Shown: one piece after another, positions 4,201 through 34,423 of the stretch | Layout of the letters: each line of letters opens with the position of its first letter | Numbering within the stretch: the first letter of the stretch is position 1 | Source: Rugalucina vietnamica | Lineage: Eukaryota; Mollusca; Bivalvia; Lucinida; Lucinidae | Direction of reading: 5' to 3' | Length of the DNA stretch: 64,000 nt | Assembly: GCA_964017185.1 (NCBI GenBank) | Contig: OZ024875.1 | Span: 42,129,486-42,193,485 of the forward strand | Translations under genes and position numbers: made by a program | Notes under the pieces: generated by a model | Seen by the model: the letters and a program-made list of their open reading frames with translations, nothing else | Databases searched by the model: none | What the model was told of the DNA's origin: nothing

Positions 4201-7200
4201 TATATACATTGTAGTACTATAGCCATGGATGCTTCACGCCAAGTTTCACTGAAATCAATCTATTGGTTTCAGAGAAGATATTTGAAGGGTTTTTACCATA
4301 TATGGGCATGGTGGCCATCTTGGTCATGTGACCTAGAATATTAATATATACATTGGTTCCCCCATCCTATAGATGCTTCACATAAAATTTGGCTTCAGTT
4401 GGCCATGTGGTTTTAGAGGAGAAGATGTTTGAATATTATGGTAATATTTATGTATATTGCCCCGTAGTGTGGGCATATGAGCCCTTGGGTCCATTTTTTT
4501 TTTCGGAATAATTAATATTTAGTCCTACTACCCATTTCCTGCAAGATTTTCACCTCAAATGACTTTTTAAAAGTTTTCCCCATTCCAATGCATTGGCGAC
4601 CTATGTTGACCTTGTCGTAAAATAGGTCAAGGTGACCACAGGGTCATGATTTATATACACATTGTAGTACTTCAGCCTTTGGTGCTTCATGCCAAGTTTC
4701 TTTGAAATCGAACCATCAGATTCGGAGAAGAAGATTTTTGAAGGGGTTTTACCATATATGGGCATGGCAGCCATCTTGGTCATGTGAACTAGATAATTTA
4801 TATATACATTAATTCCCCCATTTCATAGATGCTTCACATAAAATTTGGCTTTGATTCGCCAAGCGGTTTAAGAGGAGAAGATGTTTGAATATTATGATAA
4901 TATACATATTGCCCCGGGGTGGGGGCAGATGAGCCCCTGGGGTCTATTTTTTTTTTCAGAATCATTAATATTCAGTCCTACTGCCCATTTCCTGCAAGAC
5001 ATTCACTTTAAATGACATTTTAAAAGTTTTCCCTATTCAAATGCATTGGCGACCTATGTTGACCTTGCCGTAAAAAAAGGTCAAGGTCATCACAGGGTCA
5101 TGATTTATATATACATTGTAGTACTTAAGCCATCGATGCTTCATGCCAAGTTTCTTTGAAATCGATCCACCGGTTCTGGAGAAGAAGATTTTTGAAGGGT
5201 TTTTACCATATATGGGCATCGCGGCCATCTTGGTCATGTGACCTGGATTATTTATATACACATTGATTACCCCTTCCTATTGATGCTTCACATAAAATTT
5301 GGCTTTGATTGGCCAACCGGTTTCATAGGAGATGATGTTTAAATATTATGGTAATATACATGTATATTGCCCCGGGGTGGGGGCATATGAGCCCCTGGGG
5401 TCCAATTTTTTTCAGAATCATTAATATTCAGTCCTACTGCCCATTTCCTGCAAGACATTCAATTTAAATGACATTTTAAAAGTTTTCCCCATTCAAATGC
5501 ATTGGCGACCTATGTTGACCTTGCCGTAAAATAGGTCAAGGTCATCACAGGGTCATGATTTATATATACATTGTAGTGCTTGAGCCATCAATGCTTCATG
5601 CCAAGTTTCGTTGAAATCAGTCCACCGGTTCTGGAGAAGAAGATTTTTGAAGGGTTTTTACCATATATGGGCATGGCGGCCATCTTGGTCATGTGACCTG
5701 GATTTCTTATATACACATTGGTTCCCCCTTCCTATAGATGCTTCATATAAAATTTGGCTTTGGTTGGCCAAGCGGTTTCAGAGAAGAAGATCTTTGAAAT
5801 TGTGAACGGACGACGGACGGACGGACGACGGACGGACGGACGCCGGATCATGGCCATCCTATAAGCTCACCTTGTGAGCCTAACGGCTCAGGTGAGCTAA
5901 ATATGGTGGCTGCTTCAGCTTCTTGTCGATTAACCTCTATACTGGTACAGCTGAGTAACTTAACATCAGCTTGAGTACATATTGTCGCTACCTGAAATTG
6001 ATAAATGAATGTGTAAATATTTAGCATCAGATGTAGGGATCGAAAACTAAATCACATACATACTATACATCAATAGTACGTATATATACTGAGCATAAAA
6101 AGAAACGCAGCAATTATAATCTACTAAATCTTGAACAAACTATGATATAATCAGATTTCGTTGAATGTTTAACACACATAGTAGATATCAGACTTCTAAA
6201 TGCAAGAAACCGATTTTCACTTTAGTAAGTACATGTATTGCTGAGTTTATTCGATGCCGACCACAGGAAAGTTGAAAATGGTAAAACATACAGTGAGCAT
6301 GCGTAAACATTAAAACAGTTGATGATTTAGAGGTTAAAAAGTGTACGTATGCACAGAGCAAATCTTTCCCGATTTTGCATTATCTAAGAGGGCAAAATAT
6401 CTTTTTCGATTTTAATCAAAACAAAGATCAGGTTTTCTGCAGTTTATACCCTAGTATCCCATAAATATGAATCACGCATTTAAACAAAGTTGAAGTCATC
6501 TTCATTTTATCCTTAAACTGGAAAAATCCTCCGTAAGATAGTGCTGCGTTTCTTTTTTTGTTCAGTGTAGTTCCAACTGAAACAACACCTGTTCCCAATG
6601 AGCTTGAATGGGTTCATTTGTGTGTACCTATTGTTCAATTATGTTTATTTCTTTTTTATTGTTTTGTTGTTTATTTAATATTGAAAAATCTGACCAGGTT
6701 ATGAAAATGGCAAACGGGGTGCGGTCCTACACGGAATACTGTTACTGCAGGTACAGAGTTAACTTCTTTTTAAAACCGATTTTCCAAGGAACAACTATAA
6801 GCTATGATGGTGGATAGGAAAAATCTGATTAAAATTTCGTCAACAAATTGCAGAGGTTTAGGGGAATACACCAAAAGAAAAGATGTTTTTAACTTTTTAA
6901 GAGGCAAAAATCATGGGATATACTGTTTGCAAGACACACACTTTACTGCAAAAATGGAACCGTACATAAATGCAGAATGGGGAGGGGAAATATTATTTAA
7001 TTCTCACACTTCGAACTCTAGAGGAGTTTGCATTTTACTCAGTAACAATATAGAATATAAAGTACATCAATCGAAAAAAGACCAAGAGGGAAACCTACTT
7101 ATTATAGATATAGAATTAGAAGGCCACCGTTTCTCTCTAGTGAATGTGTATGGTCCAAATGATGATTCACCAGACTTTTTCCAAAACATACATGGCGCTT

Positions 7201-10200
7201 TAGAAGAAATGGGTAACGAAACGATTGTAATATGTGGTGATTTTAACCTTGTACAAAACCAGGACTTAGATACTTATAATTATGTCAACATAAATAATCC
7301 TAGAGCCAAAAATAAGGTCTTAAATTTAAAAGAAGAATTAAACATGGTCGATCCTTTTAGAGAAATATATGATGGTCTTCGAAGATTTACGTGGAGAAAG
7401 GCAAACCCTATTAAACAAGCACGACTAGACTTCTTTCTTGTATCAGAAACAATAATGCATAGTGTAAATGATTTAGAAATTATACCAAGTTATAGATCGG
7501 ACCATTCTACTGTTGTACTTTCGCTGCAATTTAATGACTTTGTCAAAGGTAAAGGATTGTGGAAATTTAATGTTAGCCTTCTTAAAGATAAAAATTATGT
7601 TAACACTGTCAAAAAGTGCATTAATGACGTTAAAGAGCAATATATGTTACCAGTGTATGATACCGAATTTATTGAGGACAATGCCAATAATGAAATGCTA
7701 CAATTTACAATATCGAATCAGCTTTTTCTGGAGGTACTATTGATGGAAATTAGAGGAAAAACAATTTCGTACTCAGCGCACAAAAAGAAACAAAACAAGG
7801 AAAAGGAAGATTTATTACAAACAGAAATAGAAGATTTAGAGAAAACTGGTGAAATGAATTTAGATTTGTTGGAAACTAAAAAAGAAGAGCTTGAAAATTT
7901 AAGAAAAGAGAAACTTAAAGGTATCATTATAAGATCAAGGGTTAGGTGGGCAGAAGAAGGAGAGAAACCAACCAACTACTTTTGTAACCTTGAATCACGA
8001 AATTATATTAATAAAACAATTACGAAAATAGAAAAACAAAATGGCCAAACAATTACAAAACAGGAAGATATACTGAATGAGGTTAAATTATTTTACGAAA
8101 ATTTATATGAAAATCATGATTCAAATGACAACCAAGATTCCGAAATAATTTCGATTTTGGAAAACATACAAGAAAACCCTAAACTATCTTTAGAAAATAA
8201 AAATAAACTTGAAGGCGAGCTTACCGATAAAGAAATATTAGCAGCGGTAAAGAAAATGAAAAACAATAAAAGTCCTGGAACAGATGGATTCACTTCCGAA
8301 TTTTTCAAATTTTTCTATAATGACATTAAAGTTTTTATAAAGAAAGCATTAAATGAAGGGTACGAAAACGGAAAATTATCAATATCTCAGAGACAAGGTC
8401 TAATCACATGCCTCCCAAAGGGAGATAAACCGAAACAATTTTTAAAGAATTGGCGCCCAATTACTCTATTAAATGTTATTTATAAAATTGCGTCTTCTTG
8501 TATAGCAGAAAGAATAAAAACAACTTTAACAAGTCTTATTTCAGACGATCAAACAGGTTTTATCAGCGGAAGATACATAGGCGAAAATACAAGATTGATT
8601 TACGATATTCTTCATATTACTGATGAACTAGATATTCCAGGTCTCCTTCTTATTGTAGATTTCGAAAAAGCTTTTGATTCCATTTCGTGGAAATTCATAA
8701 ATCACACCTTAAACTTTTTTAATTTTGGAGAGTCTATCAAAAAATGGATAAATGTTTTTTATAATGATATCCAATCGTGTGTTATTCAAAATGGTTTTCT
8801 TTCAGAACCCTTTAACGTGAAAAGGGGATGTAGACAAGGAGACCCGTTATCTCCATATATATTTCTGTTATGTGCAGAAATACTTTCTCGTCAGTTTAAA
8901 GCAAGTAATGATATAAAAGGAATACAAATAGCAGGAATTGAATACCTTCTATCCCAATTTGCTGACGACACTACAATACTACTGGACGGTTCTGAAAATT
9001 CTTTAGATGAAGCCCTTAAGATCTTAAATACATTTGCATTAGCCTCAGGTCTAAAATTAAATTCAACTAAAACTCGAGCGGTATGGATAGGGAGCAAAAA
9101 ATTTAGTGGTGAAACCTTTAACCATAGACTGAAATTAGATTGGAACCAAACAGACTTCACAATTTTAGGTATTAAGTTCTCATGCAACATAGATACCATT
9201 GTTGACATAAATTATAATAACAAACTTATTGAAATAGAAAAAGAAATGAAACAGTGGTCCAAAAGAATATTAACACCTTTAGGAAGATTAACGGTACTCA
9301 AAACTTTACTTGTATCGAAGTTAAACCATTTAATTATATCTTTGTCTAATCCAAGTGCACGTCAGAAAACACAATTGAATAAATTATTTTTTGAATTTAT
9401 ATGGAAGTCATCTATAGATAAAATTAAACGTGACGTAATCATTCAAGACTTTAGTCAAGGTGGATTAAGGATGATACATTTAGAGAAATATATTTATGCT
9501 TTAAAGCTAGGATGGATAAGAAGACTCATTTTGAATGAAGCGAAATATAAAACTCTTTTTCAAAATATATATGAAAACATAGAACATATATTAAACAAAG
9601 GTGATACTTTCATCGAGGAGTTGAAGAATAATAACAGCAATAAATTTTGGTACGACGTCTTTGATGCTTGGATCAAGTTTATTCCCTTTTTGAAACCTAA
9701 AACAAAAGAAGATGTAATGAGTATTAGTTTATGGGAAAACAGTAACATTAAAATAAATGGCATGCCAGTCTTTTATCAAAGATGGTACGATAAAAATATT
9801 ATTTTCATCAAGGATCTTTTAAATTCAGAAGGAAAACTTCTATCTTTTGAACAGTTTCAGAATAAGTATGATCTACGATGTCATTTTCTACAGTTTTTAG
9901 GAATTAAAACAGCTGTTGGAAATTATATAAGACAGCTGGAGATTAACCTAAGCATAGACCCAGAACCTTTAATGAACTGTGTCATACCCTTCAATGTAAA
10001 ACTTATATTAAAACATAAAAAGGGAAGTCAGGATATGTACAGATTATTAGTATATAAAACCGTTATACCTAAAAGTCAAATAAAATGGAATCAAGTTTTT
10101 CAAAATGTAGACATGAATTGGAAATCTATATACACAGTTTCAAAAATATGCTGTAGAAACACAAAACTATATTGGTTTCAATATAGACTTCTACATAGAA

Positions 10201-13200
10201 TATTAGCAACAAAATACCTTTTAACAAAAATGAACATCGAGCAAAATAATCTTTGTACTTTCTGTGGCGAAGAAGTAGAGAAACTTGAACATTTATTCTG
10301 GCAATGCAATACTGTAAATACGTTTTGGGAAAATATTGAACAATGGATTTACGATCAAAATAATTACTTAATTAACATAGACAAAGTAAGAGCAATATTC
10401 GGAATTTTAAACGCATCAAAAATCTATATACCGGTAAACTATATACTAACAGTCACTCGATACTACATTTATAATTGTAAATTAAATGAAAACAATCTCA
10501 CAATCCAAGGATGGCAAAGATTCGTAAAACAATATTTAGAAGTAGAAAAAATGATAGCAATTAAAAACGACACATACATGCAATTCAACACAAATTGGGG
10601 AAAATGGTTACGTATCTTCGACTTGTAATAGAGATTACTAGGGCTCACATTTTAATATATTGAAGTATAATCCATATCCTATCAACTGTAACATATGAAC
10701 ATTTTAAAGCAAAAAAACCTCTGCGAATCAGCACATATATATCTAGCTTTTAGCCGATGACTTTGTACCTTGCACGAGATCCACAACAATGTACAATGTA
10801 TACTGTGTAGCCGCGCTTCGTTTGTCAGTACTACTGAAGCATATCTGTACGGGCAACGTCAAGCAAAAAGTAACTTGTTGACATAAAATATACCAATTAG
10901 ACCATGTGAAAACTATGTTCATCTGGATTTTTGTAATACATCACATGGACGCAAAGATCGCTGTATATAATCAAACGTTGATTGAAAGTGATGTTCATGG
11001 AAAAATATTATCGCTGAAAAATAATAATTTTCTCATGGTGTGGTTGCCATATAATTATATTGTAAATATTGTACATGTATCTATGTTTCTCATAGTTGTA
11101 TGTTATCATGTTTTCTGTGTCAGATGAGAAATAAAAAAAATTACAAAAAAAAATATGGTGGCTGCATGGATATGTGAATTATTTCTACATATGAAATTTC
11201 AAGAACTTTTTAAAGTGGATTTTAAGCGGAGAATACTGGTTCAAGTCCAACATAACCACCGTGTCCATTCGAAACGCATGAAAAGGGGTCGTAACGCATG
11301 ATCGGCGGCATTTTCACGTATGATTGCGGTAGTTTCCTACGGATTCGCCACCATTTTTGGAGGAAACTTTAGCGGTAAGTTTTTGCAAACTTTTATTTGA
11401 ATTATTTAAATAGACCTTTCCAACGAACGATCTAGCCTATCCGGATCTACATACATGCCTCTAATTGCCGAGTGTTCTACTGATGCATAGGCTTCGATAG
11501 GACTCGCAAACATTCGAGGAGATTATTGTTTTGCAAGTTCGGCCATACATGAAAATAACATTCGCCCAAAAACGTTTCGTACATTTCTCATTTTCTTCAA
11601 AGTTTTGACTAACTGTTGGATGATTTTGCTTTTTGACATCACACTTTAACTTAAGAAGCCAATTTCTCGTGATTTTTTTCCCGAACAACCACGGGTTAAA
11701 ACAAAATACGTCAAAATTAAAGTAACGCACGATAATACGGCAACCTGGTCTTTCGAACTTTGCAAGTATTTACAATGAATAACATATTTTAAGGGGTAAA
11801 AGCAAGCCAAACGCTCATTTGTCTCCAGTTTACACGTTTGGTGCTCGTCAATTGTACAAAGCTGAATCCTTGCTGTAAAACAGTAATTTGCTGACCATGT
11901 TGCTCGGTAGCTCTGTTGGCATAGCTATCAAAGAAGCAGAAGAAGAATGTGGCCCGACCAGGGCACGAACCAAGGGTCTCTCTCTTACCGTTTTTAACGT
12001 GGAGAGTTACTTGCAAACACCTGGACATTCACACCGCCTTACATTTATACAGCAACAGAAGGCAATTTCAAAAGTAGAAAGTAAATGGTGTCACGACTAG
12101 TATACTTTTCCAGCATTCAGTCTTGAAATTATACCACCTTTTCAAGCACGGCGGTAACAGAGAAATTTAGAGGTGCCGACATGACCTTGAACCGTCCAAC
12201 AATCTGTGGACCTGCTCTTGAGCACAAATAGTCCGGTAGAAAAGAGCTGAATTCAGAGAGGACCTGGAATTGAGTTCTAAAGTTTTTTTCTTTACTGAAT
12301 CTTATCTAGCAGACCTTGCCCTTGAAGAATCCAAGTGATGCCACCTTGGCATCATTGAGCATTTTGATATATTCAAGATGGTATCCAAGATGGAAGCCAG
12401 AAATAGCAAAAAGCAATATTTTACATCTCAGAGGACCTGGGATTAAGTTCTAAAGTGTTTTTCTATACTGAATCTTGTTTAGCAGACATAGACCTTGAAG
12501 AATCCAAGTGATGCCACTTTGGCTTCATTTAGCGTTTTTATGTATTCATGATGGTATCCAAGATGGAGGCCAGAAAAAGCAAAAATCAATATATTACATC
12601 TAAGAGGACATGAAATTAAGTCTAAAGTATTTACCTTTACTGGATCTTGTTTAGCAGACATAGCCCTTGAAGAATCCAAGTGATGCCACTTTGGCATCAT
12701 TGTGCATTTTTGATATATTCAAGATGGAATCCAAGATGGAAGCCAGAAATAGCAAAAATAAACAGCTTTACATATATGGGACAACTCTGTGATGTGATTT
12801 ATTGGTTTGCTTTTGTGTAAGACATAGAAAAAGAAGTTATGAAACATAACATTTCATAACAAGTCATAACATTTGTAACTTTAAGAAACTAAGATGGCAT
12901 CCAAGACGGTGGCCATAATAAAAAGAAGCACCAAAAACAATTTTACCTGTTCACATTTGAGATGTGCTTCTGGAAACATTTTGTGTAAAGCATAGCTTTT
13001 TAATTAAGAACAGGGGCATGTCTTTTTCACAAATTATCTAATTTCAATATGCAGGATGGCAACAAAAATGGTAGTCAAAACATCAAAAATATATTTATGT
13101 ATTTTTACACTTGTATTCCCCTTGTAATACTTCATTTCTTTGGCAATCTGCATAATAAATAATATACTTGGCATCCATTTATGTATCATGCCAGTCCAGT

Positions 13201-22987: not shown

Positions 22988-23215
22988 ATGGCAGATGTCA
23001 ATGAAATAATGTGGACAAGAAGGGCTCGAGAGAGCTCTTCTGTTATAGGCAGTGTCATACTAATCTCATGTTGTAGTTACATTCTGTTTAACAAATTGAA
23101 AAGGAGAAAGAAAGAAATTCTTATTTTCAGTCGTTATCCTGAAGCTGGGAAGGCAAAAACCAGATTGATTCCCTCCCTTGGTCAGTCTGGAGCTGCTCAA
23201 GTTCAAGTCTGTATG
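22988..23215 (+). CDS. Bifunctional transferase exon 1 (membrane anchor, RYPEAGKAKTRL)
   Basis: Residues 1-76: cytosolic N-terminus, hydrophobic segment VIGSVILISCCSYILF at 19-34, basic KLKRRKK, then the first strand and the phosphate-binding-like motif RYPEAGKAKTRLIPSLG. Donor GTATG|GTAAGG, phase 0. Confidence 0.9.
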
Positions 23216-23622
23216 GTAAGGCTTGTGAAATTTCATTTCATCTGAGCTCTTATTTTGTACGCACATATTATCTATCCCTTCACATGGCATACACCCATAA
23301 CCAGGTATAATTTACTGAGTCAATCAACTTCTGGCAATTACGTACCAAGGAATTTTAGAAATGAGACTCAAGACCCTTCAACCACAAGTCCTAGGCTTTA
23401 CCATGGCATCACCTGAGGTGATGATCAGAAATTGATCGACTCAGTATCAGAAGATAGTGTCAGTCCTTTCCACTATACTAGCTTGTTCAATCCACTGTAT
23501 ACTGATTGGCAAGGATTTATCATTTAAGAGTCAAACCACTCATTACGAAAAAGTTTCTCATGCAACATACAGAGTTTTTTTCCAGCAGTGAAAATTGAAA
23601 ATTTCATTGGAAAATTTTGATG

Positions 23623-23653
<31 letters not shown>

Positions 23654-26600
23654 TTTTGCTCTAAACATTGATTGTGGGTACATGTTAACAATTGTACATG
23701 GTTAACAATTGTTGTTGACTATCTTTTCTTTTTTTCTTTCTTTCTTTTTTTCATGTATTAAGTCAGATTTATAATTATTATACATTTTTGCAGACTGAGC
23801 ATATTCTGAAGGCAATGAGAAGATATGAAGTCAGTAACAAGGATGTTGACATAACACTGCAATATACCGGCGGCACACACAAACTGATGAAATTCTGGCT
23901 TGATAAGAAAACTCGGGGAATAAATTGCTTCTACAGACCACAGAGAGGAAACAATCTTGGTGAAAAATTGCATTTAGCCATATCAGATAGCTTCAACAGA
24001 GGTCATGAGTCCGTCGTTGTCATAGGTGAAATTGATTATCAATTTTAAATTTGATATAAAATGCATTGAATGTCATTCCCAAACCTATAATAGTTGCTGA
24101 AATGAATTCTCAGGCCTTTGATGAATTAAAAATATTTGTTAAGATGAAATTTAAATTTATAAATTTTGTTTTATCATTGTTGTAGTATGACTATCTGTTT
24201 TTCCTTTGAAGTTTTTGTAACATTAAATCTAATACAAGTGAATTCCAAAGACATTAATACTCAGCTCAGGAAGGAGATAGAATAAAAACCATACTGTAAC
24301 TTCCTGATATTGGAAATAACAGAATGAATCTGTCAGGTGGTGTTCTGTCATACTACAAGGTCAGACCTTGTAGAAAAATAAACTTGTAGAAGAGCTTGTC
24401 TTCGGCTTGCTTTATTTCACTTATTTTTACCCATCTGTACTTTAACTCTAGCTTAAAATATACGGTACTAAATTTTTAGCTCACCTGAACCGAAGGCTCA
24501 TGGGCAGCTTATAGTATGGTACTCGAGCCGGCGTCCGTGCGTGCGTGCGTCCGTCCGTGCATGCGTGCGTTAACATTTTCAAAGATCTTCTTCTCTGAAA
24601 CCGCTTGGCCAATCAAAGCCAAATTTTATATGAAGCATCTATATGAAGTGAGAACCAATGTGTATATAAATAATCAAGGTCACATGACCAAGATGGCCAC
24701 CATGCCCATATATGGTAAAAACCCTTCAAAAATCTTCTTCTCTGAAACCGGTAGACCAATTTCAACGAAACTTGGCATGAAGCATCTATGACTCAAGTAC
24801 TACAATGCATATATAAATCATGACCCTGCAATGACCTTGACTTATTTTACGGCAAGGTCAATTTTGGAAACATTGGCTTTTACATGGGAAAAAGTGAAAA
24901 CTATGGATTTTTTTAAAACTATTGCAGCCTGATACCTGAAAAGTGGTAGATGTGAACAACTAATGAATTAGATGATAGTCTATGAGTGTATATGATTAAT
25001 TTAGGTCAAGGTCATTGGCTGACCTTGGCCTATCTGTCGTCCATACACACTTTTCAAAGATCTTCTTCTCTGAAACCCCTTGGCCAATCAAAGTCAAATT
25101 TTATGTGAAGCATCTATAGGAAGTGGAAATCAATGTATACATAAATAATCCAGATCACATGACCAAGATGGCCGCCATGCCCAAAGATGGCCGCCATGCC
25201 CATATATGGTAAAAACCCTTCAAAAATCTTCTTCTCTAGAAACGGTGGACCGATTTCAACAAAACTTGGCATGAAGCATCTATGACTCAAGTACTACAAT
25301 GTATATATAAATCATGACTCTGTTATGACCTTGACCTATTTCAGGGCAAGGTCAATTTTGGAAACATTGGCTTTTACATGGGAAAAAGTGAAAACTATGG
25401 ATTTTTTGAAAACTATTGCAGCCTAAGACCTGAAAAGTGGTTGATGCAAACAACTACAGTTCAACCTCATTATAACACGCCTCACTATAGTGCGGTTTTC
25501 AATATAATGCAGCCATGTCATGGCTCCCAAATTATTTATTTTGCTATATGTCTATTGTAAATAACCTCATTATAACACGGTTCACTTATAACACGGTCTG
25601 TTTTCATGGACCCCAAAGATAGCATTATAATGAGGTTGACCTGTAATGAATTAGATGAAGGTATATGATTAATTTAGGTCAAGGTCATCTCTTGACCTTG
25701 GCCTATCTGTCGTCCATACAAACTTTTCAAAGATCTTCTTCTCTGAAACCGCTTGGTCAACCAAAGCCAAATTTTATATGAAGCATCTATAGGAAGTGGA
25801 AACCAATGTATTTATAAATAATCCAGGTCACATGACCAAGATGGCCACCATGGCCATATATGGTAAAAACCCTTCAAAAATCTTCTCTGAAACCGGTGGA
25901 CCACTTTCAACAAAACTTGGCATGAAGCATCTATGACTCAAGTACTACAATGTATATATAAATCATGACCCTGTGATGACCTTGACCTATTTCAGGGCAA
26001 GGTCAATTTTGGAAACATTGGCTTTTACATGGAAAAAAGTGAAAACAATGGATTTTTTGAAAACTGTTGCAGCCTGAGACCTGAAAAGTGGTAGATGAAG
26101 AAAACTGATGGAGTGAATGAAGGTATGTGATTAATTAAGGTCAAGGTCATCTCTTAACCTTGGCCCGTCTGTGTTCCATACACGCTTTTCGAAGATTTTC
26201 TTCTCTGCAACCGCTTGTTTTGACTCTCAGGTGAGCGATTGTTGCCCTTGGGCTACTTGTTATGTTTTATTTTGATTTTTACGTAGGTGGTGATATTCCT
26301 GGTATTAATGAAGATATTATAGAAACAGCATTTAAATTGTTGAACAAGAAGGGTACAGACATGGTGCTTGGCAAGGCTGAAGATGGAGGATACTATCTCA
26401 TTGGACTGAACAAGTCTACATCATCTTTTCTAGGTTTGCTATCTGACTTGTAAGATTATGAAAACATGCAATATACATACTTTTTCTTGAGCTGCAAAAA
26501 TTAAAAAAGTTAAATTGAATTTTTTTTAGAGTGGCTAAGTGGTTAAGTGCAGTAAGCGCTCTTAACCATATACACTTCTGTAACCATATACAGGCGACCT

Positions 26601-29600
26601 GCGCTATCTCAAACTCGGTTGTCTCGAAAACCCCACTTATGTCGAATTGATCCCTCACTCAAATTGATCCCTCACTCCCGAGCATCTCTCCCTATATGTT
26701 ATTGTATTTCAACCTTGCTTGTGTCGAACTCGGTTATGACGGAAACTCAGCTGTGTCAAAGTGATAATTCGCTCCCAACAGAAATAAGAACATTAGTTTC
26801 ACCCTTCCTGTGTCGAAGTTAGAAGTCAAAATCGGTCTTTGCCGACTTGATATCAACACACAACCTATCATCACTGGAATTGTTACAGAACATTTTGACG
26901 TGTCAGGTTGGGGAATACTTGTTTGAAATCATAATCGATGGGGTAAACATGGTGGAAAAGGAAAGGAAACCCACTCAGTCTGGGAATGTGAAAGTGTTGA
27001 GATTTTCTAAGAATCTTGGCTGGTCTCAATTTGCTTATCTCGAACTTCGGAAAACTCGAAGTGGTTTCTCCATTCCCCTTGATTTCGAGATAGCGAAGGT
27101 GGCCTGTACACTTAAGCGCTTAATGGTTAAGCGCTTACTGCACTTAACCATTTGATCATCTCACCGCTGTTTCTGGTGTGAGTTTGAGCCCCACACGGGG
27201 CACATGTGAGACAAACCAAGTTCTGCTTGCAGGTGTGCCAGGTGGTTTTTCTCAGGGTTCTCCCTCCCCCCCCCCCACCCTTCTCCTCCCCATTTTGCCC
27301 CACCTAGTGATTGGCACATCTCATATGAGCTGAAATAATCTTGAAAGGGACGTTAAACTGAATGAAAATTAAACACATTAGAACTGCTTTGCGGAGGCGG
27401 TTCTAACGAGTACCCACAATCTGTGTTTGGGAATAGAAATTTTAGCTCATGATTTGGGGTGAAATCATATTCACAATCCAATGAAAAAAAACAGAGCCAT
27501 ATTATACAATCAACCTCATGTCAGCATAGCAATAGACAATTAGACATGAAAGGTATTAATATTCTGTCTTTTCAGATAAAATATTTGATAATATAGATTG
27601 GGGTACAAGCCATGTATTTAAACAGCAGCTAGACCAAGCAATTAGTGTGGGGGCTTCTCCTGAGATTCTACCAGTTGTACTGGCTGATGTGGTAAGTTAA
27701 TTCCGTAGATGACTTTTGATAATACATGTATATATACTGGTAGATAAGATATGGAAAAATATTGCTTGATCATGGTTTGCTCTGTTTGCTCCAGGAACAA
27801 CAAATCCAATGATTTTATGGAAAATTTGAAAACAAATTTAGCTTTGTGTATAAGTTTGTTTGAATGCAGAAATGTTTATGTAATATAATATTAAGGGCTT
27901 TCTAAAATAATTTCAGCCGTCTCATGAGAAAACCAACAATGTGGTTTCTGAACAGTTTTGACACAAAACATGCTGTACAGTCACAGAAGCAGACTATAAG
28001 CTTGAAATTTCGGATTTAAGAAGAAGAGGAAGTAAACTATCCATGTAGCGAAAACAAAGGCATGATCAGCTTCATGGTTTTCTCATGAGGCAGCTCATTT
28101 AATGTTTTAGGATACAGAAGAAGATATAAGTGTATTTGTGAGAGAAGTTGGTGTACCTGTTGACCAACTGAAGTCTGTGAAGTGGAGCATTATCATTCCA
28201 GTATTGAATGAGGAGAAAAACATCTCAGATACCTTACACAGCATTATCAAGGTATTGTCTAATTTGACGGAAGACCTGAACCATGACACGAGAAAATTGG
28301 TTTTCGGGGGTTCCGACCAGGTTCGTTACAAACCAACCTGTACAGTCACAAAGATAGCTAGAAGCTTGAAATTTATTTTAGAATAAGAGAGATAGTACCA
28401 TCCGTGTAGCGAAAACAAAAGGGCTGATCAGCTGTGCAGTAAAAAAAAACAGCACAGCTGGTCTGCGACTTTGTTTACATATTTAAATATCCGGTTTTCT
28501 CATGACACGGCTCATCTGATAAATACTATGCTGTTACGTGAGAGCACTTTTGTGATCTTTTGTGGCTTGTAATGTACAACTGATTTGTGGCTTGTAATGT
28601 ACAACTGATTGAACAATAGAAATTTTCATGGAAATTTTAACTTCATTTTTGCGCAAATTAAGATAAAGGCAATAAATATTTAAGCTGTGTTGAACTGAGA
28701 ATGAGCAAAGTTCTGGTCACGTTAAATATGCTGCTCATCTTTTGTACTACTAATCTTGCATTGTAATCTAGGGATTGTAGAATTGATCCTGGGCAATACC
28801 AGTCTTTCTGGTGAGACTTAGATGGACCTTTTAGTCCCATGTTGCTGAGATAAAAAGACATTATGAAAACTCATGCAATATACAGAGATATTTTTTGCTC
28901 AAAACATAGATTGTGGGTACAATCTCAGCGAGGCGGTTCTAACGAGTACGAGTACCCACAATCTATGTTTTGGATCAAAAATAAGAAGAATAGATATACC
29001 CCTGCAAACCCCATTTTTTCTATATAAACGTGGGGTTTAAGGGGGTATACATTTCACAGACATGTTTTCCTGATGACAAAAAAAAAAAATCTCTTTTTTT
29101 TTTCAACAGAGTTGTAATGATATTGACAACATCCGGGAGATTATAATCAGTGATGGTGGTAGTCATGACAACACAGTGGAAGTGGTGAAAACAATCTCTC
29201 AGTCATTCCCGGTACCACTCAATGTCATATCTAGTAAACCAGGTAATGGAATGCTCATTCAGTTTTGTTATATACTGTACTCGCTCTGCTGTTGTTAAAA
29301 CTGGCCTTTGTTGATCAGTTGATAGAACGTCTGCCTAGCTGGTTTGATTTTGACATAATGAAAACATGTCGGTGAAATGTATAGCCCCTTAAACCCCACT
29401 TTTAAATAGAAAAACTGGGGTTTGCAGGGGTTACACCTAATTTTTTTTGATCCAAAACATATATTGTAGGTACTCATTAGAACTGCCTCGGTGAGGCGGT
29501 TCTAACATGTACCCACAATGTATGTTTTGATCGAAAATATTAATGACATCATTTTTTTTCAATGAAATTTTCAATTTTTATAGATGAAAAAAAAACCCCT

Positions 29601-32600
29601 GTATATTGCTCTGGCGAGTTTTCATAATGGCTGCAGCATAAACACTGTTCTTACTATACTGAGAACTTCTTAGAATTTTGATTGGCTGACACCAAATTTA
29701 TTATAGCATGATGAGTATCATGCTAAAAGATTGTCACCCCTGATACACTTGTGGAATGACTTGATCCCAATAAAATTATATCTTTTGTGAAATTGTGAGT
29801 TTTGTTTATTTTCTATCTTTGCTCCAATACAAGTTTTTATTGGTACCGTACTCACGGTCTTTATTTTAAGCTCAATGAAACCAAAATATTTTAACAAAGC
29901 CTTTAGAAAATAAGAACGCAAACAATTATATGTTTATCCATTGCAGGAAGAGGTAATCAGTTAATACATGGTGCAGATTTATCAACAGGAGATTATTTAC
30001 TGTTTCTTCATGCCGACACTAAAGTACCTCAGGACTTTGACACAATGGCTGCCAGATGTATACAGACTCCTGGCGTTGTGTGTGGGGCTTTTGAATTTCA
30101 GTTTGATGTTATAGCGGATGATAAATTGTAAGGAAATGAGCCTCTGCATGAGAAAACCAACAATCTGCATATGTGAAAACAAAGACACAGATCAGCTGTG
30201 CAGTAACTGCACAGCTGATCAGCGCCTTTGTTTTCAATACATGGATAGTACAATTCCTCTTCTTCTTAAATCCCAAATTTCAATCCTCTAGTCTTCTTCT
30301 GTGACTGTACTGCCCGTTTTGTGTCGGACCTGGTCCGAACCCCAAATTGTTGTTATTCTCATGCAGTGGCTCAAATTATTTTCAGCTACATGTAACTGTA
30401 ATACTGTAAATTTGGCAATTTGTTTGTAACTTTTAATTTCCCAAATTTTCTATCATTTGAATTGTTAGTTTCTGAGTACATGTGCAGTCTATAGAGTTCA
30501 TATGAAGTCTTTATTTAATAGCAAAACCCTTGAATTCACAAGACAATCAGTCTGCAAATATATGTGAAAAGTAAGTACTTGTGAACATTGCCAAAATTTT
30601 TGGACCTTCGAAGAGTAATTGTACTATCTGTGTAGCGAAAACAAATGCGCTGATCAGCAGTGATCTGTGCCTTTGTTTTTTGCCTATGCAAATTGTTTGT
30701 TTTCTTATGCGGCAGCTCATGTATAATTTCAGAAGATCTAAGGAAGGATTCTGGTTCCTGTTACAAATGTATTTACTTGTTTGGGGAACCAGGCGAAGAT
30801 CTCGAAAGAAAGGTATATCAGGGAAAATTTTATTATTATTATTATTTTTTTTTTATATATATATATATTTTGCAATGATATTAAAACCTACTTCTCCAAG
30901 GAATAAACATCCATTAAAATTCAGCCAGGTTTTAAATATAAAAAAAGACAATATGGGTATCTGTCAAACAGTGTTTCTTTTGATTAATTTTTGCTACTCA
31001 TCTGTACCACTTAATTTTTGTAATTTTGCAGTGTTTTTCACTGACTCTTTCAGCAGTTTTACAAGGTCAGTCAAGACCATAACGAAAACTTGCCCATGCA
31101 ATAAACAGAGATTTTTTAGCTTTAAAAATTGAAAATTTTGAGCTGAAAATTTTTGATATTTTTCTTATTTTTGCTCAAAATATCGATTGTGGGTACATGT
31201 TAGTACCGCCTCGCCGAGGCGTCTCTAACGTGTACCCACAATCTATGTTTTGAGCAAAAATCAGAAAAAGATTTTAGAAAATCTAATTAGATTTTAGATT
31301 TTTTTAAACCAAAAACATTTCTGTATATTGCATGGGCACATTTTCATAATTTTACAGTGTTTTTCAGTGACTCTCTCAGCAGTTTTACACTGTCAGTCAA
31401 GACTATGGTTCTTTTTTGTCAACATTGTTACTACACAGTATGGAATTCTCGGCATTTTTCTCTTCAGTCAAACCTAATATGGTACTTGTTTATGGATTTG
31501 CTTCCCAGTTTTGTGAACAAACTGGGCCCAGTTGTTCAAAACTTCATTAGCTTAATGTCATCGTTAAGACCTCAATTTGTTAAGTAAATGCCGACTACAT
31601 AAGCAAACACACTGTTAATTTTTGCTGAAAAAAATGTGAGAATCCTTTGCCATGCAAAGGATTCTCACATTTTTTCAACAAAAAATAACAGCATATTTTT
31701 AATATTGCCATTTGAAATTTTAACATCGTTAACTAACGACCTTGTTAATTTTAAACAACTGGCCCCTGGTGTTTGGATATTTACAGAATTTCCATACGGT
31801 GATCAAGGACTTTTTATGAGCAAAAGAAAATACAAAGAAGTTGGTGGTTTCCCAGCATATTACTTGATGGAGGATTATATTTTGGTAAGATGATCAGTTT
31901 TGTTATTTTTTGATTCAGTTTTAAGTCTCAAGACTATTTCAGCTCACATTAGATGAGTCAGTCCATAGCTGGGGTGAAAACAGGTAAACCATGAGAAAAA
32001 AACCACCTGGCACACCTGTAAGCAGAATTTGGCTAGTCTCACATGTGCTCCATGTAGGGCTCGCAAACTTATCAGACACGACAGTGAGACGATTGAATGA
32101 TAACACAGATTAATGAAATCAGCACTGTCCTGATCAAATTCAACCTTTCTGCACTGCACATGTATAATAAAGAATCAGAAGGGGGTCTCAAGTATTAGCA
32201 TATTAAAAATAACAACATAATACATGTAGAAAGTACATGTATACATCCAATTGTCCATTTCCTGCAAGAATTTCCCTTTGAATGACATTTTAACAGTTTT
32301 TCCCCTTTCAAATGCTTTATAGGCGAGCTATGCTGACCTTGCAGTAAACATAGGTCAAGTTCATCACAGTGTCATGATTCATATATGATATTGTAGAACA
32401 TGTACTTTAGTCATTAATGCCACATGCCAAGTTTCTTTACAATTGGTCCACTGGTTCCGGAGTAGAAGATTTTTTAAGGGTTTTACCAAGCACAGAAGAT
32501 GGCTAGATACTTGAAATTTCAGATTTAAGAAGAAGAGAGAAACTACTATAGGTGTAGTGAAAACAAAGGTGCTGATCAGCTTTGCGGTTACCGCAAAGCT

Positions 32601-34423
32601 GGTCTGCGCTTTTGTTTTCACATATGCAAATAATTGGTTTTCTAATGCGGCGGCTCAAATTTAATTGCATTAATTCCTGGTCCCTATATTCTTACTTTTC
32701 ATTTGAGCCACATCATTAGAAAACAGGATTTTTGTCTATGTGAAAACAAAGCAGCAGATCCGAGTGCCTTTGTTTTCACCACATAGATAGTATAATTCCT
32801 CTACTTTCTTAATCCAAAATTTCCAGCCTCTAACCATCTTCTGTGCTTGTACAGACCAGTTTGTGTCAGACCCGGTCGGAAACCCCGATGACAGGTTTCT
32901 CGCATTGTGGCTTATTTCCTTCCTGTTACAGGTAGACAAGCTGAGAACTATCGGCCATGTTGCTATAGCAGACGGCGACCCTATCATTACTTCACACAGA
33001 AGATGGAAGAAATGGGGTTATATAAGAGTGTGTATACATCATACTAACATATCTACGTCATCAATACCCCCTTAAATCCCATATTTATATAGTGAATTGG
33101 GGTTCTTAGGGGAATGAATTTTTTCTTTTCAAAAAAAACAACAACAAAAAACAAAGAACAAAAGTTTTGTTCCAAAACATAGATTGTGGGAACTCTTTAG
33201 AATACATGTACTGCCTCGCTGAGGCGGTTCAAAGGTGTGCCCACAATCACTATCTGTTTTGATAATAAATAAAAAGTTAAAAATATCAATCTTTTTTCTA
33301 ATGAAATTTTTACAGCTGAAAAAAAAAATCCCTGTATATTGCACGAGCAGGTTTTGTAAATGAACAGCTTTATTGAAATAATAACTTATTATTGCATAAA
33401 TACCCGTGTCACACGATATTAACAGCCGTTTATTAATGGAGAGAAAGCCATTCATTAATATTGCAATTCTTGCACGCACATGCTGTTAATACATGGCTTT
33501 TACTTATGCTCATTACCTGGCGCCACGCAAAGCATGTGCTAGTAATGAGATACTGAAGTCCGCCCGGAACGAGCATAAAAACGAAAGGCTGTAAAATGTG
33601 ATGAGGCTGTAAAATATAGTGCACCGTATTTCTTTCATTTCTGCACCTTATTTCTTTCGTTTCTACAAAATTTATGCAATAATAGCGATCAAAAATGATT
33701 TTCCATTAACATTCGCTAGGTCCCTCGGGGAATGTTGAAAACCTCGGGCTATGCCCTCGGTTTTCAACACTCCCTTCGGGACCTAGCGAATGTTAATGAA
33801 TGGAAAATCATTTTTGATCCCTATATTGGCAATGTTCTGTGAATAGATTTGCATTGAATTAAAACTAAAGTTTGTTTGTTTGTATTGAGGCTTAACTCCC
33901 CAGTCAACAATTTTAAGTCATGTCGGGATGGAGCCAATACTGTAGGGAGTTAATGTCTTGCTCAATGACACAACCTGGTGCCGCTTGTGGGAACCGAACC
34001 CAGGACCTCTCGATTCACAGTCCGATGCTCTATACCACTATGCCACCGTGCTCCCCTTAAACTTAAGTGATTCCTAAGTTTTTTGATAGGCTTTTTGTGG
34101 AAACATCATTGCTGACTCTAGTCAAATTGTCTATTCAAGTCTTCAAGCAGTTTTGTTGTAGTATTACAGGTGTAAAGTGATTACAAACATTTTATTCTTG
34201 AAGCACTGAGGTTCTTCGATGAGTGTGTGGATTCATTTCCAAGAAAATGTTTCAAGACGAAGGTGTCATCTTCTTATGACCTTAGCTGTTGGTACATTCC
34301 ATTCATTCACGTGTATATCTCTTCCAGATAACAGGACTGAATCAACTAATAATTTGGGCCTACAAATTGGGAGTCCATCCAAACACATTGGCAGAGTGGT
34401 ACTATGGTAAAAAGATCAAGTGA
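22988..34423 (+). CDS. Membrane-anchored bifunctional transferase: TIGR04282/DUF2064-like domain fused to TIGR04283-like glycosyltransferase
   Basis: Eleven exons (1548 bp, 515 aa) join with every phase matching. Residues 19-34 form a hydrophobic signal-anchor followed by a basic stretch, suggesting a type II membrane topology. Domain 1 (about 43-240) has RYPEAGKAKTRL (49-60), GGDIPG (154-159) and EDGGYYLIGL (185-194), the hallmarks of DUF2064/TIGR04282 transferases. Domain 2 (about 264-500) has IIIPVLNEE, DGGSHDNT, GRGNQL, FLHADT (352-357), FPYGDQGLF (421-429) and MEDY (447-450), the hallmarks of TIGR04283 GT-A transferases. In bacteria the two families are usually adjacent genes named for radical SAM/seleno- or arsenosugar association; their substrates are not settled. 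The start is the first in-frame ATG; the two other upstream triplets are out of frame. An AATAAA lies at 35208-35213. Substrate in this animal is unknown. Confidence 0.9.
23547..23725 (+). repeat. Palindromic MITE family A, truncated copy with poly-T expansion
   Basis: Has TTTCTCATGCAACATACAGAG, GAAAATTTCATTGG, a 27 bp T-run and CATTGATTGTGGGTACATGTTA, then loses the second hairpin arm. Directly upstream of the transferase exon 2 acceptor. Confidence 0.65.
23794..24025 (+). CDS. Bifunctional transferase exon 2
   Basis: Residues 77-153: begins TEHILKAMRRYEV, continues through DVDITLQYTGGTHKLMKFW and RPQRGNNLGEKLHLAIS, and ends VVVIG in a split Gly codon. Acceptor TTTTTGCAG|ACTGAG, donor CATAG|GTGAAATT. 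The Q-x-G-x-x-L-G-E-K pattern is typical of DUF2064 proteins. Confidence 0.9.
24026..24472. other. Intron 2 of transferase gene, unassigned part
   Basis: AT-rich, no exon or repeat recognised before the family D element starts. Confidence 0.4.
24473..26262 (+). mobile_element. GGTCAAGGTCA tandem-unit element (family D), copy 2
   Basis: Starts TTTAGCTCACCTGAACCGAAGGCTCA with a GTGCGTGCGTCCGTCC tract, then ~500 bp units with ACATGACCAAGATGGCC, CCATATATGGTAAAAACCCTTC and TGACCTTGACCTATTTCAGG. It lies in intron 2 of the transferase gene and contains a nested pogo-like MITE at 25456-25643. Confidence 0.8.
25456..25643. mobile_element. pogo/Tigger-like MITE nested in family D element
   Basis: 188 bp with inverted ends TACAGTTCAACCTCATTATAA and TTATAATGAGGTTGACCTGTA. 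The CAG...AACCTC...TATAAC end style is typical of pogo/Tigger elements; TA at each end fits their target choice. Its ends start or finish with TA. Confidence 0.75.
26287..26433 (+). CDS. Bifunctional transferase exon 3 (GGDIPG and DGGYYLIGL)
   Basis: Encodes GDIPGINEDIIETAFKLL, then GTDMVLGKAEDGGYYLIGLN. Acceptor TTACGTAG|GTGGTG, donor TCTAG|GTTTGC. Bacterial relatives usually have G-[TS]-D-C-P at the first motif; here it is GGDIP, so the Cys is replaced while the Asp is kept. Confidence 0.9.
26525..27160. mobile_element. TIR element at a broken SINE
   Basis: Inner inverted ends ACAGGCGACCTGCGCTATCTC (about 26591) and the inverse GAGATAGCGAAGGTGGCCTGT (ending about 27107), with diverged AACTCGGT/TCGAA repeats between. 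The outer flanks GGTTAAGTGCAGTAAGCGCT (26540) and AAGCGCTTACTGCACTTAAC are also mutually inverted. No ORF. In transferase intron 3. Confidence 0.65.
27125..27392 (+). repeat. SINE-like repeat, second family
   Basis: GTGTGAGTTTGAGCCCCACA at the B-box position, then ACATGTGAGACAAACCAAGT and AGGTGTGCCAGGTGG, a C-rich run at about 27270, and ending GAAAGGGACGTTAAACTGAATG. Matches the reverse complement of 31935-32135. Confidence 0.6.
27375..27440. repeat. Palindromic MITE family A, fragment
   Basis: Only TTAGAACTGC, GGCGGTTCTAACGAGTACCC and ACAATCTGTGTTTGG survive: half of the hairpin. Confidence 0.5.
27576..27691 (+). CDS. Bifunctional transferase exon 4
   Basis: Encodes KIFDNIDWGTSHVFKQQLDQ and ASPEILPVVLADV, the C-terminal part of domain 1 (family pattern L-F-x-x-I-x-W-x-T). 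Acceptor TTTTCAG|ATAAAA, donor GATGTG|GTAAGT, phase 0. Confidence 0.9.
27915..28097 (+). repeat. Palindromic MITE family B copy abutting exon 5 acceptor
   Basis: Runs from AGCCGTCTCATGAGAAAACC to GGTTTTCTCATGAGGCAGCTCA with a shortened central hairpin. The intron AG of transferase exon 5 is only 13 bp beyond its end. Confidence 0.75.
28111..28251 (+). CDS. Bifunctional transferase exon 5 (domain junction)
   Basis: 47 codons: DTEEDISVFVREVGV closes domain 1, and WSIIIPVLNEEKNISDTL opens the glycosyltransferase domain, so the fusion point is inside one exon. Acceptor TGTTTTAG|GATACAG lies about 14 bp after the end of a palindromic MITE; donor ATCAAG|GTATTG is followed by another MITE copy 24 bp on. 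Confidence 0.9.
28276..28514 (+). repeat. Palindromic MITE family B copy
   Basis: CCATGACACGAGAAAATTGG to CCGGTTTTCTCATGACACGG, with GGGCTGATCAGCTGTGCAG and an A-run interrupting the hairpin. Begins about 25 bp after the exon 5 donor. Confidence 0.75.
28556..28610 (+). repeat. Short tandem duplication
   Basis: TTTGTGGCTTGTAATGTACA plus ACTGA occurs twice back to back, about 27 bp each, a recent local duplication. Confidence 0.7.
28864..29076 (+). repeat. Palindromic MITE family A copy, 34 bp before exon 6
   Basis: GAAAACTCATGCAATATACAG end, central hairpin with ACATAGATTGTGGGTACAA, then the TATACCCCTGCAAACCCC arm and ACATGTTTTCCTGATG end. A tract of A then T leads straight into the exon 6 acceptor. 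Confidence 0.8.
29110..29242 (+). CDS. Bifunctional transferase exon 6 (DGGSHDNT)
   Basis: Encodes IREIIISDGGSHDNTVEVV and PLNVISSKP, the nucleotide-sugar binding part of the GT-A fold (D-G-G-S-x-D-x-T). Acceptor TTTCAACAG|AGTTG, donor CCAG|GTAATGG. Bracketed by oppositely oriented palindromic MITEs at 28864-29076 and 29358-29627. Confidence 0.9.
29358..29627 (-). repeat. Palindromic MITE family A copy, 116 bp after exon 6
   Basis: Starts GAAAACATGTCGGTGAAATG and ends TATTGCTCTGGCGAGTTTTC, the opposite orientation to 28864-29076. Confidence 0.8.
29947..30127 (+). CDS. Bifunctional transferase exon 7 (GRGNQL, FLHADT)
   Basis: Encodes GRGNQLIHGADLSTGDYLLF and LHADTKVPQDFDTMAARC, then VVCGAFEFQFDV. 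FLHADT contains the D-x-D-like metal site of this family. Acceptor TTGCAG|GAAGAG, donor AAATT|GTAAGG with a split Leu codon. A MITE with an AAAT target duplication starts 10 bp after the exon. Confidence 0.9.
30138..30372 (-). repeat. Palindromic MITE family B copy with AAAT duplication, right after exon 7
   Basis: GAGCCTCTGCATGAGAAAAC to TTATTCTCATGCAGTGGCTC, hairpin GATCAGCTGTGCAGTAACTG/CACAGCTGATC. AAAT flanks both ends (30134-30137, 30373-30376). The left duplication overlaps the transferase exon 7 donor region. Confidence 0.85.
30615..30718 (+). repeat. Palindromic MITE family B, 5'-truncated copy before exon 8
   Basis: Contains TGTACTATCTGTGTAGCGAA, GCGCTGATCAGCAGTGATC and GTTTTCTTATGCGGCAGCTC. 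It ends 14 bp before the exon 8 acceptor AG. Confidence 0.7.
30733..30812 (+). CDS. Bifunctional transferase exon 8
   Basis: 26 full codons, RSKEGFWFLLQMYLLVWGTR then RRSRKK, amphipathic and basic. Acceptor AATTTCAG|AAGATC is 14 bp after a truncated palindromic MITE; donor AAAG|GTATATC. Phases fit exons 7 and 9. Confidence 0.85.
31083..31347 (+). repeat. Palindromic MITE family A copy with both ends of the same type
   Basis: Starts GAAAACTTGCCCATGCAATA and ends TATTGCATGGGCACATTTTC, so this copy is inverted over its whole length, unlike those with a GGGGTATAC arm. The central hairpin carries ATCGATTGTGGGTACATG and CGTGTACCCACAATCTATG. Confidence 0.8.
31522..31769. mobile_element. 248 bp hairpin MITE 17 bp before exon 9
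   Basis: Inverted ends CTGGGCCCAGTTGTTCAAAA and TTTAAACAACTGGCCCCTGG. At its centre is a second hairpin, TGAGAATCCTTTGCCATG / CAAAGGATTCTCACA at about 31636-31671. Confidence 0.75.
31787..31884 (+). CDS. Bifunctional transferase exon 9 (PYGDQ, MEDY)
   Basis: Encodes FPYGDQGLFMSKRKYKEVGG and FPAYYLMEDYIL, the most diagnostic TIGR04283 block (P-Y-G-D-Q-x-x-F followed by G-G-F-P and M-E-D). Acceptor ATTTACAG|AATTTCC, donor TTTTG|GTAAGA. Confidence 0.92.
31935..32135 (-). repeat. SINE-like repeat, second family, minus copy
   Basis: Reverse of 27125-27392: ACCACCTGGCACACCTGTAA, CTAGTCTCACATGTGCTCC and GGGCTCGCAAAC at the B-box position. In transferase intron 9. Confidence 0.55.
32235..32480 (-). 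repeat. Family D fragment
   Basis: One partial unit: CCATTTCCTGCAAGAATTTC, AGCTATGCTGACCTTGCAGT, TAGGTCAAGTTCATCACAGT and GGTTCCGGAGTAGAAGATTTT. Joined directly to a truncated family B MITE. Confidence 0.65.
32491..32656 (+). repeat. Palindromic MITE family B, left-truncated copy
   Basis: From ACAGAAGATGGCTAGATACT to GGTTTTCTAATGCGGCGGCT; hairpin TGATCAGCTTTGCGGTTACC/CGCAAAGCTGGTC. Confidence 0.7.
32705..32912 (-). repeat. Palindromic MITE family B copy, 19 bp before exon 10 acceptor AG
   Basis: GAGCCACATCATTAGAAAAC to CTCGCATTGTGGCTTA, with a damaged hairpin (GCAGCAGATCCGAGTGCC). Ends just upstream of TTTCCTTCCTGTTACAG. Confidence 0.7.
32932..33027 (+). CDS. Bifunctional transferase exon 10
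   Basis: 32 codons, VDKLRTIGHVAIADGDPIIT then SHRRWKKWGYIR. Family members have a S-x-R-R-W-x-x-x-G motif here. Acceptor GTTACAG|GTAGAC; donor TAAGA|GTGTGT is weak but gives the right phase with exon 11. Confidence 0.85.
33050..33358 (-). repeat. Palindromic MITE family A copy after exon 10
   Basis: TACCCCCTTAAATCCCATAT arm, an A-rich insertion at about 33129-33160, hairpin with ACATAGATTGTGGGAACTC and GTGCCCACAATCACTATCTG, ending TATATTGCACGAGCAGGTTT. Starts about 22 bp after the exon 10 donor. Confidence 0.7.
33686..33822. repeat. Hairpin repeat of about 137 bp
   Basis: GATCAAAAATGATTTTCCAT, TAACATTCGCTAGGTCCCTC and GAATGTTGAAAACC are mirrored by GGTTTTCAACACTCCC, GGGACCTAGCGAATGTTA and AATCATTTTTGATCC, with a short CTCGGGCTATGCCCT loop. 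In transferase intron 10. Confidence 0.75.
33872..34058 (-). repeat. tRNA-headed SINE, minus copy
   Basis: Read on the minus strand: GGGGAGCACGGTGGCATAGT then TATAGAGCATCGG, a B box in GGTTCGGTTCCC, and a body ending in TTGTATTGAGG-type A/C-rich tail. Matches the plus copy at 34556-34755. Confidence 0.8.
34328..34423 (+). CDS. Bifunctional transferase exon 11 (stop codon)
   Basis: ITGLNQLIIWAYKLGVHPNT then LAEWYYGKKIK and TGA. The Y-x-L-G-V-x-P-x-x-L-x-x-W-Y ending is the normal C-terminus of TIGR04283 proteins, so the reading frame is complete. Acceptor CTTCCAG|ATAACAGG. Confidence 0.9.
   Translation: MTGLNQLIIWAYKLGVHPNTLAEWYYGKKIK

Follow-up and report, generated by a model that had tools for sequence, protein, structure and literature searches.

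A Gene Joining Two Bacterial-Type Transferase Domains in the Bivalve Rugalucina vietnamica and Its Candidate Role after ArsS in Arsenosugar Assembly

A stretch of 64,000 nucleotides in the genome assembly of the lucinid bivalve Rugalucina vietnamica (G000:C7:42129486-42193485, contig C7 being OZ024875.1), referred to below as the window, contains a split gene whose product seems, on a narrow balance, to be a two-domain enzyme of bacterial type, anchored in a membrane and active downstream of ArsS in the assembly of arsenosugars. The two domain families, TIGR04282 and TIGR04283, are named for their association with a radical S-adenosylmethionine (SAM)/selenodomain protein, and the original prediction, made from the DNA letters of the window, had linked the gene to ArsS/selenodomain loci. 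This link is stronger than was claimed, since the animal assembly itself encodes ArsS.

The Fused Gene and Its Protein

The gene could be rebuilt from the DNA as 11 joined exons at window positions 22988-34423 on the forward strand (C7:42152473-42163908), with the coordinates and length first claimed for it, and comprises 1548 nt of coding sequence for a protein of 515 amino acids (aa). Its introns follow the GT-AG rule in 10/10 cases, the phases agree, and internal stops are absent (0 found). In NCBIfam, the protein matches TIGR04282 over aa 44-247 (175.8 bits against a curated cut-off of 134, profile positions 1-189 of 189) and TIGR04283 over aa 267-509 (204.6 bits against a curated cut-off of 182, profile positions 2-221 of 221), both scores being far above what chance would give. 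Both family assignments of the original prediction are borne out by these values, and ordinary animal glycosyltransferase families, as an account of both parts, are not what the NCBIfam family searches show. In Pfam, the same 515-aa protein gives 95.3 bits to DUF2064 and 78 bits to Glycos_transf_2. The boundary between the domains also lies where it had been predicted, inside exon 5, which encodes aa 242-288, TIGR04282 ending at 247 and TIGR04283 beginning at 267.

The animal protein retains 33 of the 34 columns that are invariant in 19 bacterial fused proteins, the exception being an N replaced by I339. Among solved structures, 3cgx is the closest by sequence (E 5.2e-22). In NCBIfam, the cut-off of 105 of the CofC model (TIGR03552) is missed, with 28.4 bits, as is that of the GpgS model (43 bits, cut-off 262); CofC is similar to domain 1 in fold only and, with the 3-phosphoglycerate guanylyltransferase 7p97 and other CofC-type nucleotidyltransferases, is among the closest known systems, and the GT-A transferases GpgS, TarS/TarP, and WrtF belong to families different from that of domain 2. 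At the junction of exons 7 and 8, the animal protein is about 13 residues longer than 7 aligned bacterial proteins, which makes the 5' edge of exon 8 the junction least surely placed.

The sole hydrophobic stretch of the protein, at about aa 19-34, is the only one that exceeds 1.3 on a 19-residue Kyte-Doolittle scan. Three basic residues precede it and six follow; NKLKRRKK adjoins it immediately, leading into the first strand of domain 1, and there is no stem. According to the positive-inside rule, a basic flank marks the cytosolic side. Since more basic residues lie after the segment than before it and a stem is missing, the sequence suggests that the anchor would face the enzyme to the cytosol, on the endoplasmic reticulum or the outer mitochondrial membrane, rather than to the Golgi lumen, and the Golgi-type anchoring first put forward is not favoured.

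Judged by its sequence, the fused gene is a real, intact nuclear gene of the animal, and it is presumably expressed. The assembly, of 1.09 Gb in 47 contigs, has TGF-beta domains at 15 places, which mark it as an animal genome; 0 of the 14 prokaryote control genomes have such a domain. A dead gene copy, or DNA from a contaminant or symbiont, would be another source of a gene of this kind, but it is very improbable here, given the ten spliceosomal introns, the lack of any stop, the retention of nearly all invariant residues, the position of the gene at 42 Mb of contig C7 in an animal assembly, and the presence of ArsS, with introns of its own, on the 57-Mb contig C10 (at 28.96 Mb). The single DUF2064 match in the assembly (exon 3) and both TIGR04283 matches (exons 7 and 9) belong to this gene, and a second copy was not found in the assembly by an exon-by-exon search, which could miss a diverged copy.

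The fused architecture is also present in bacteria. One reading frame with both domains occurs in 22 of 80 bacterial loci, always with TIGR04282 first, as in the animal; these are the best 80 of at least 473 relatives, and the share of fused loci among them is not a frequency. The fused loci include cyanobacteria, Thermodesulfobacteriota, Planctomycetota, and Bacillota, and 292 genomes of the cyanobacterial phylum yielded at least 8 further near-full-length matches at 38-43% identity, one of which is interrupted by stops. The domains, their order, and the single frame are the same in the animal and in fused proteins such as those of Geitlerinema sp. P-1104 (L018), Cyanobacteria bacterium RU_5_0 (L020), and a metagenome-assembled genome (MAG) of Thermodesulfobacteriota (L023), with a best identity of about 42% over the fused length. 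What sets the animal gene apart from the bacterial fusions is its ten introns, the hydrophobic anchor at the N-terminus, and the extra residues at exons 7 and 8. Because the same fused open reading frame, in the same order, is found in bacteria, the fusion is probably older than the animal gene, which, on this comparison, is likely to have been fused before it came into the animal line, if it is not of still greater age. A fusion as an animal event was rejected, and one on the way into animals, as originally supposed, is not supported, in view of the 22 fused bacterial frames, to which the further cyanobacterial genomes can be added. The related claim that bacteria carry two neighbouring genes holds for plasmid records, where the two families are adjacent genes, but this is not the sole state. 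By eye, a glycosyltransferase-2-like part was seen to precede the TIGR04282 part in L024:5320-7413, L026:4345-6423, L028:5254-7293, and L071:3859-6615; in L024, L026, and L028, the TIGR04283 part follows too, making three fused domains.

ArsS and Other Pathway Genes in the Same Assembly

In a TIGR04167 profile search of the animal genome, five exon matches were found in one 4.5-kb stretch of contig C10, none of them above the cut-off alone. A sixth exon was added by tblastn, and the spliced product, of 313 residues, reaches 414 bits against the TIGR04167 cut-off of 300. Its splice sites comprise 6 AG acceptors and 5 GT donors, and its CxxxCxxC motif reads CNQACNHC. Stops in 3/5 of the exon matches were considered as signs of decay and rejected as such, since they fall within intron sequence on the far side of the splice site (exons 2, 3, and 4). 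Within the coding chain, a terminal TGA is the only stop-type codon before the stop: the last exon reads HCYGCSAGMGSS, TGA, QGTTV, and the stop, at a place where bacterial ArsS has GSSC. This TGA, at C10:28961841, aligns with the Cys of GSSC and with the TGA that stands at this Cys/selenocysteine site in 4/16 of the bacterial ArsS above cut-off from the 22 fused-gene genomes.

Moreover, a match to the selenocysteine insertion sequence (SECIS) model SECIS_1, below its gathering score, lies 757 nt past the TGA on the coding strand, with E 0.0048 in 3 kb and 0.064 in 40 kb, and no other SECIS match stands among the 44 Rfam matches listed for these 40 kb (E up to 10). The animal genome also has two tRNA-Sec matches above threshold. 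On the strength of this codon and its surroundings, the animal ArsS is likely to be a selenoprotein. It belongs to the same family as bacterial ArsS, from which it differs in its introns and in the SECIS-like element 3' of the stop, as in eukaryotes. The current name of TIGR04167 is arsenosugar biosynthesis radical SAM (seleno)protein ArsS, and a review on prokaryotes lists this family as a predicted bacterial selenoprotein and states that most bacterial families are confined to bacteria (PMC9312934).

Apart from these genes, the tRNA-Sec search gave 22 weaker full-length matches of 40-46 bits, below the gathering score, several of them clustered on contigs C2 and C3; these may be different tRNAs or repeats derived from tRNAs. 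By eye, one interspersed repeat family, its translation resembling CENKDTDQLCSNCTADQRLCF, was recognised both in an intron of the fused gene, at window positions of about 30140-30290, and just 3' of the ArsS stop, and a repeat shared by the surroundings of both genes fits both lying in one host genome.

Two further enzymes may be represented in the assembly. Two exon matches to MTAP, of 74.3 and 52.2 bits, lie on contig C5, and an exon on C2 reading YYGCGLTIPTKLERMKVLDLGSGSGRDCFVVSKLVGQDGHVTGIDMTKEQV, which we take to be AS3MT-like, scores 48 bits with the arsM model PRK11873, whose cut-off of 263 is unreachable for a single exon. PRK11873 is named as the arsM model in the prokaryote review (PMC9312934).

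In bacteria, ArsS is above cut-off in 16/22 fused-gene genomes, with one partial match in addition, vs 1/14 control genomes, and it lies inside the fetched stretch in 13 of the best 80 loci. One annotated plasmid operon, that of Acinetobacter portensis (L002), contains ArsS, both transferases, a methyltransferase, a phosphate transporter, and MTAP. The transferases there are two genes with TIGR04283 first, whereas those of the animal form a single gene without linkage to ArsS. In 28/80 loci (L018-L097), a relative of the plasmid TVP38/TMEM64-FAD oxidoreductase was observed near the transferase genes.

A Possible Route to Arsenosugars in the Animal

In the proposed pathway, AS3MT would methylate arsenic, ArsS would put a 5'-deoxyadenosyl group on dimethylarsenic, and an MTAP-type phosphorylase would swap adenine for phosphate. 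The TIGR04282 domain, with its CofC-like nucleotidyltransferase fold, would then activate the putative substrate, 5-dimethylarsinoyl-ribose-1-phosphate, with a nucleotide, and the TIGR04283 GT-A domain could pass the arseno-ribose on to an acceptor of the glycerol type. The fusion would couple activation with transfer, and the N-terminal anchor would probably hold the enzyme on the cytosolic face of a membrane. The chances seem evenly balanced that the animal makes arsenosugars de novo in this way, with a nuclear AS3MT, a selenocysteine-containing ArsS that would form the bond between arsenic and the ribose carbon, a phosphorylase, and a single anchored enzyme for both activation and transfer. 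The earlier suggestion of a role in arsenosugar chemistry is strengthened by ArsS and the AS3MT-like gene in the same assembly, a support that consists in the presence of genes.

Several observations weigh against this route. The fused gene and the ArsS, AS3MT-like, and MTAP-like genes lie on four separate contigs, and the animal side rests on one animal genome. The first coding exon of the animal ArsS was not found, and the SECIS_1 match scores 29.5 bits, below the gathering score of 35. The relative placement of the two domains in the fused protein is unsure, with a predicted template modelling score (pTM) of 0.57. Among the bacteria, 6/22 of the fused-gene genomes are without ArsS above cut-off, one of them having a partial match and several being MAGs, and ArsS lies inside the fetched stretch in only 5 of the 22 fused loci. 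With two plasmid MTAPs as queries, MTAP was found near 0/80 of the best loci, and its linkage is weak.

The enzyme could also work with ArsS and yet form some other 5'-substituted ribose glycoside, with sulfur, selenium, or a lipid head group, in which case the arsenosugar name would have been carried over from a few bacterial assignments. Such a product would be in keeping with the wide occurrence of TIGR04282 and TIGR04283 in bacteria, with unsettled substrates, and with the status of TIGR04282 in NCBIfam as a hypothetical equivalog only. It appears unlikely, however, though well above negligible, since arsM-like genes are found near 7/80 of the best loci, the AS3MT-like gene could supply methylated arsenic in the animal, and ArsS itself is reported to act on arsenic (PMC12159101).

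Origin of the Fused Gene

A bacterial origin of the gene by transfer is plausible. In a tree of the TIGR04283 domain obtained by a quick method, the animal stands beside the Geitlerinema sequence (SH-aLRT, the Shimodaira-Hasegawa-like approximate likelihood ratio test, 94, not starred). The trees of the fused protein do not place the animal in a phylum, and one clade with cyanobacteria is not rejected, the p-value of the approximately unbiased test (p-AU) being 0.273 in a tree of all 22 fused rows and 0.345 in another, from which L034, L035, L039, L044, and L060 were left out as long or far and, of the eight best new cyanobacterial matches (L154-L161), L159 was left out for its four stops. Animal branches are long, and in the latter tree the animal branch is the longest of all. 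The ArsS trees give no donor phylum either; one of them left out five rows that repeat genomes already in the set, and in neither were rows from the first loci used that scored 150 bits or less. On viral contigs, no ArsS relative was found, and 14 loci match the transferase query, all partial, at 23-33% identity (best E 7e-9).

Alternatively, the fused gene and ArsS may be old eukaryotic genes that were lost in many lineages, with no recent transfer from bacteria. The long animal branches, which are not nested with starred support in any bacterial phylum, would agree with this history, as would the many introns and a SECIS-like element positioned as in eukaryotes. The relatives found are, however, all bacterial, in a search that covered no other eukaryote and was not a fair test, and the clade with cyanobacteria stands unrejected. 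Old inheritance therefore seems somewhat doubtful, if a serious candidate; it concerns origin, and is compatible with an enzyme that acts after ArsS in arsenosugar assembly.

Coordinates and Other Features of the Window

Table 1. Exons of the fused gene (window positions) and location of the animal ArsS gene (contig positions).
Feature	Coordinates	Strand	Content
Exon 1	22988..23215	+	Start codon; anchor segment (hydrophobic, about aa 19-34); TIGR04282 domain, first strand and KTR loop
Exon 2	23794..24025	+	TIGR04282 domain, aa 77-154
Exon 3	26287..26433	+	TIGR04282 domain; GGDIPG and EDGGYYLIG motifs; DUF2064 match of genome search
Exon 4	27576..27691	+	TIGR04282 domain; IDWGT motif
Exon 5	28111..28251	+	TIGR04282 end (DVDTEED), linker, TIGR04283 start (SIIIPVLNEE); aa 242-288
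Exon 6	29110..29242	+	TIGR04283 domain; SDGGSHDNT motif
Exon 7	29947..30127	+	TIGR04283 domain; GRGNQ and LHADT motifs; TIGR04283 genome-search match
Exon 8	30733..30812	+	TIGR04283 domain; VWGTRRRSRKKE; 5' edge the least certain junction
Exon 9	31787..31884	+	TIGR04283 domain; FPYGDQGLF and MED motifs; TIGR04283 genome-search match
Exon 10	32932..33027	+	TIGR04283 domain; TSHRRWKKWG motif
Exon 11	34328..34423	+	C-terminal end, stop codon
Animal ArsS gene	C10:28961821-28967716	-	Loci L014 and L015; at least 6 exons

The window has 141 open reading frames of at least 70 aa, 10 of which were scanned with Pfam. An uninterrupted frame of 1275 aa at window positions 6801-10625 on the forward strand has endonuclease, reverse transcriptase (128.7 bits), and zf-RVT domains and represents a retrotransposon of the long interspersed nuclear element type. 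An Rfam scan of the window gave nothing above gathering scores, and ARAGORN with the bacterial code found no tRNA in it.

Significance for Arsenosugars in Marine Animals

A 2024 review on arsenosugars names phytoplankton and a brown alga as direct makers, calls the exact biosynthesis unknown, and takes the arsenosugars of deep-sea vent mussels as a hint of a bacterial origin (PMC11228943). In a survey of six invertebrate selenoproteomes, one of them of a mollusc, the word "radical" is absent from the main text, and its account of new eukaryotic selenoproteins is confined to AphC-like proteins (PMC3473315). No report of these genes in animals was found in one open-licence library, although they may be in print elsewhere or stand as unnamed database predictions; the same library gave no paper that joins DUF2064 with a glycosyltransferase, and none that joins a selenoprotein and radical SAM with arsenosugars or with molluscs.

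With ArsS, the transferases, and an AS3MT-like gene in its assembly, the animal would represent another source of arsenosugars, and one that is directly testable. The fused enzyme also gives access to two families with unsettled substrates. If the proposal is true, ArsS, for now a candidate, would be a new family of animal selenoproteins, and the arsenosugars of marine animals, perhaps those of vent mussels too, would be partly animal products.
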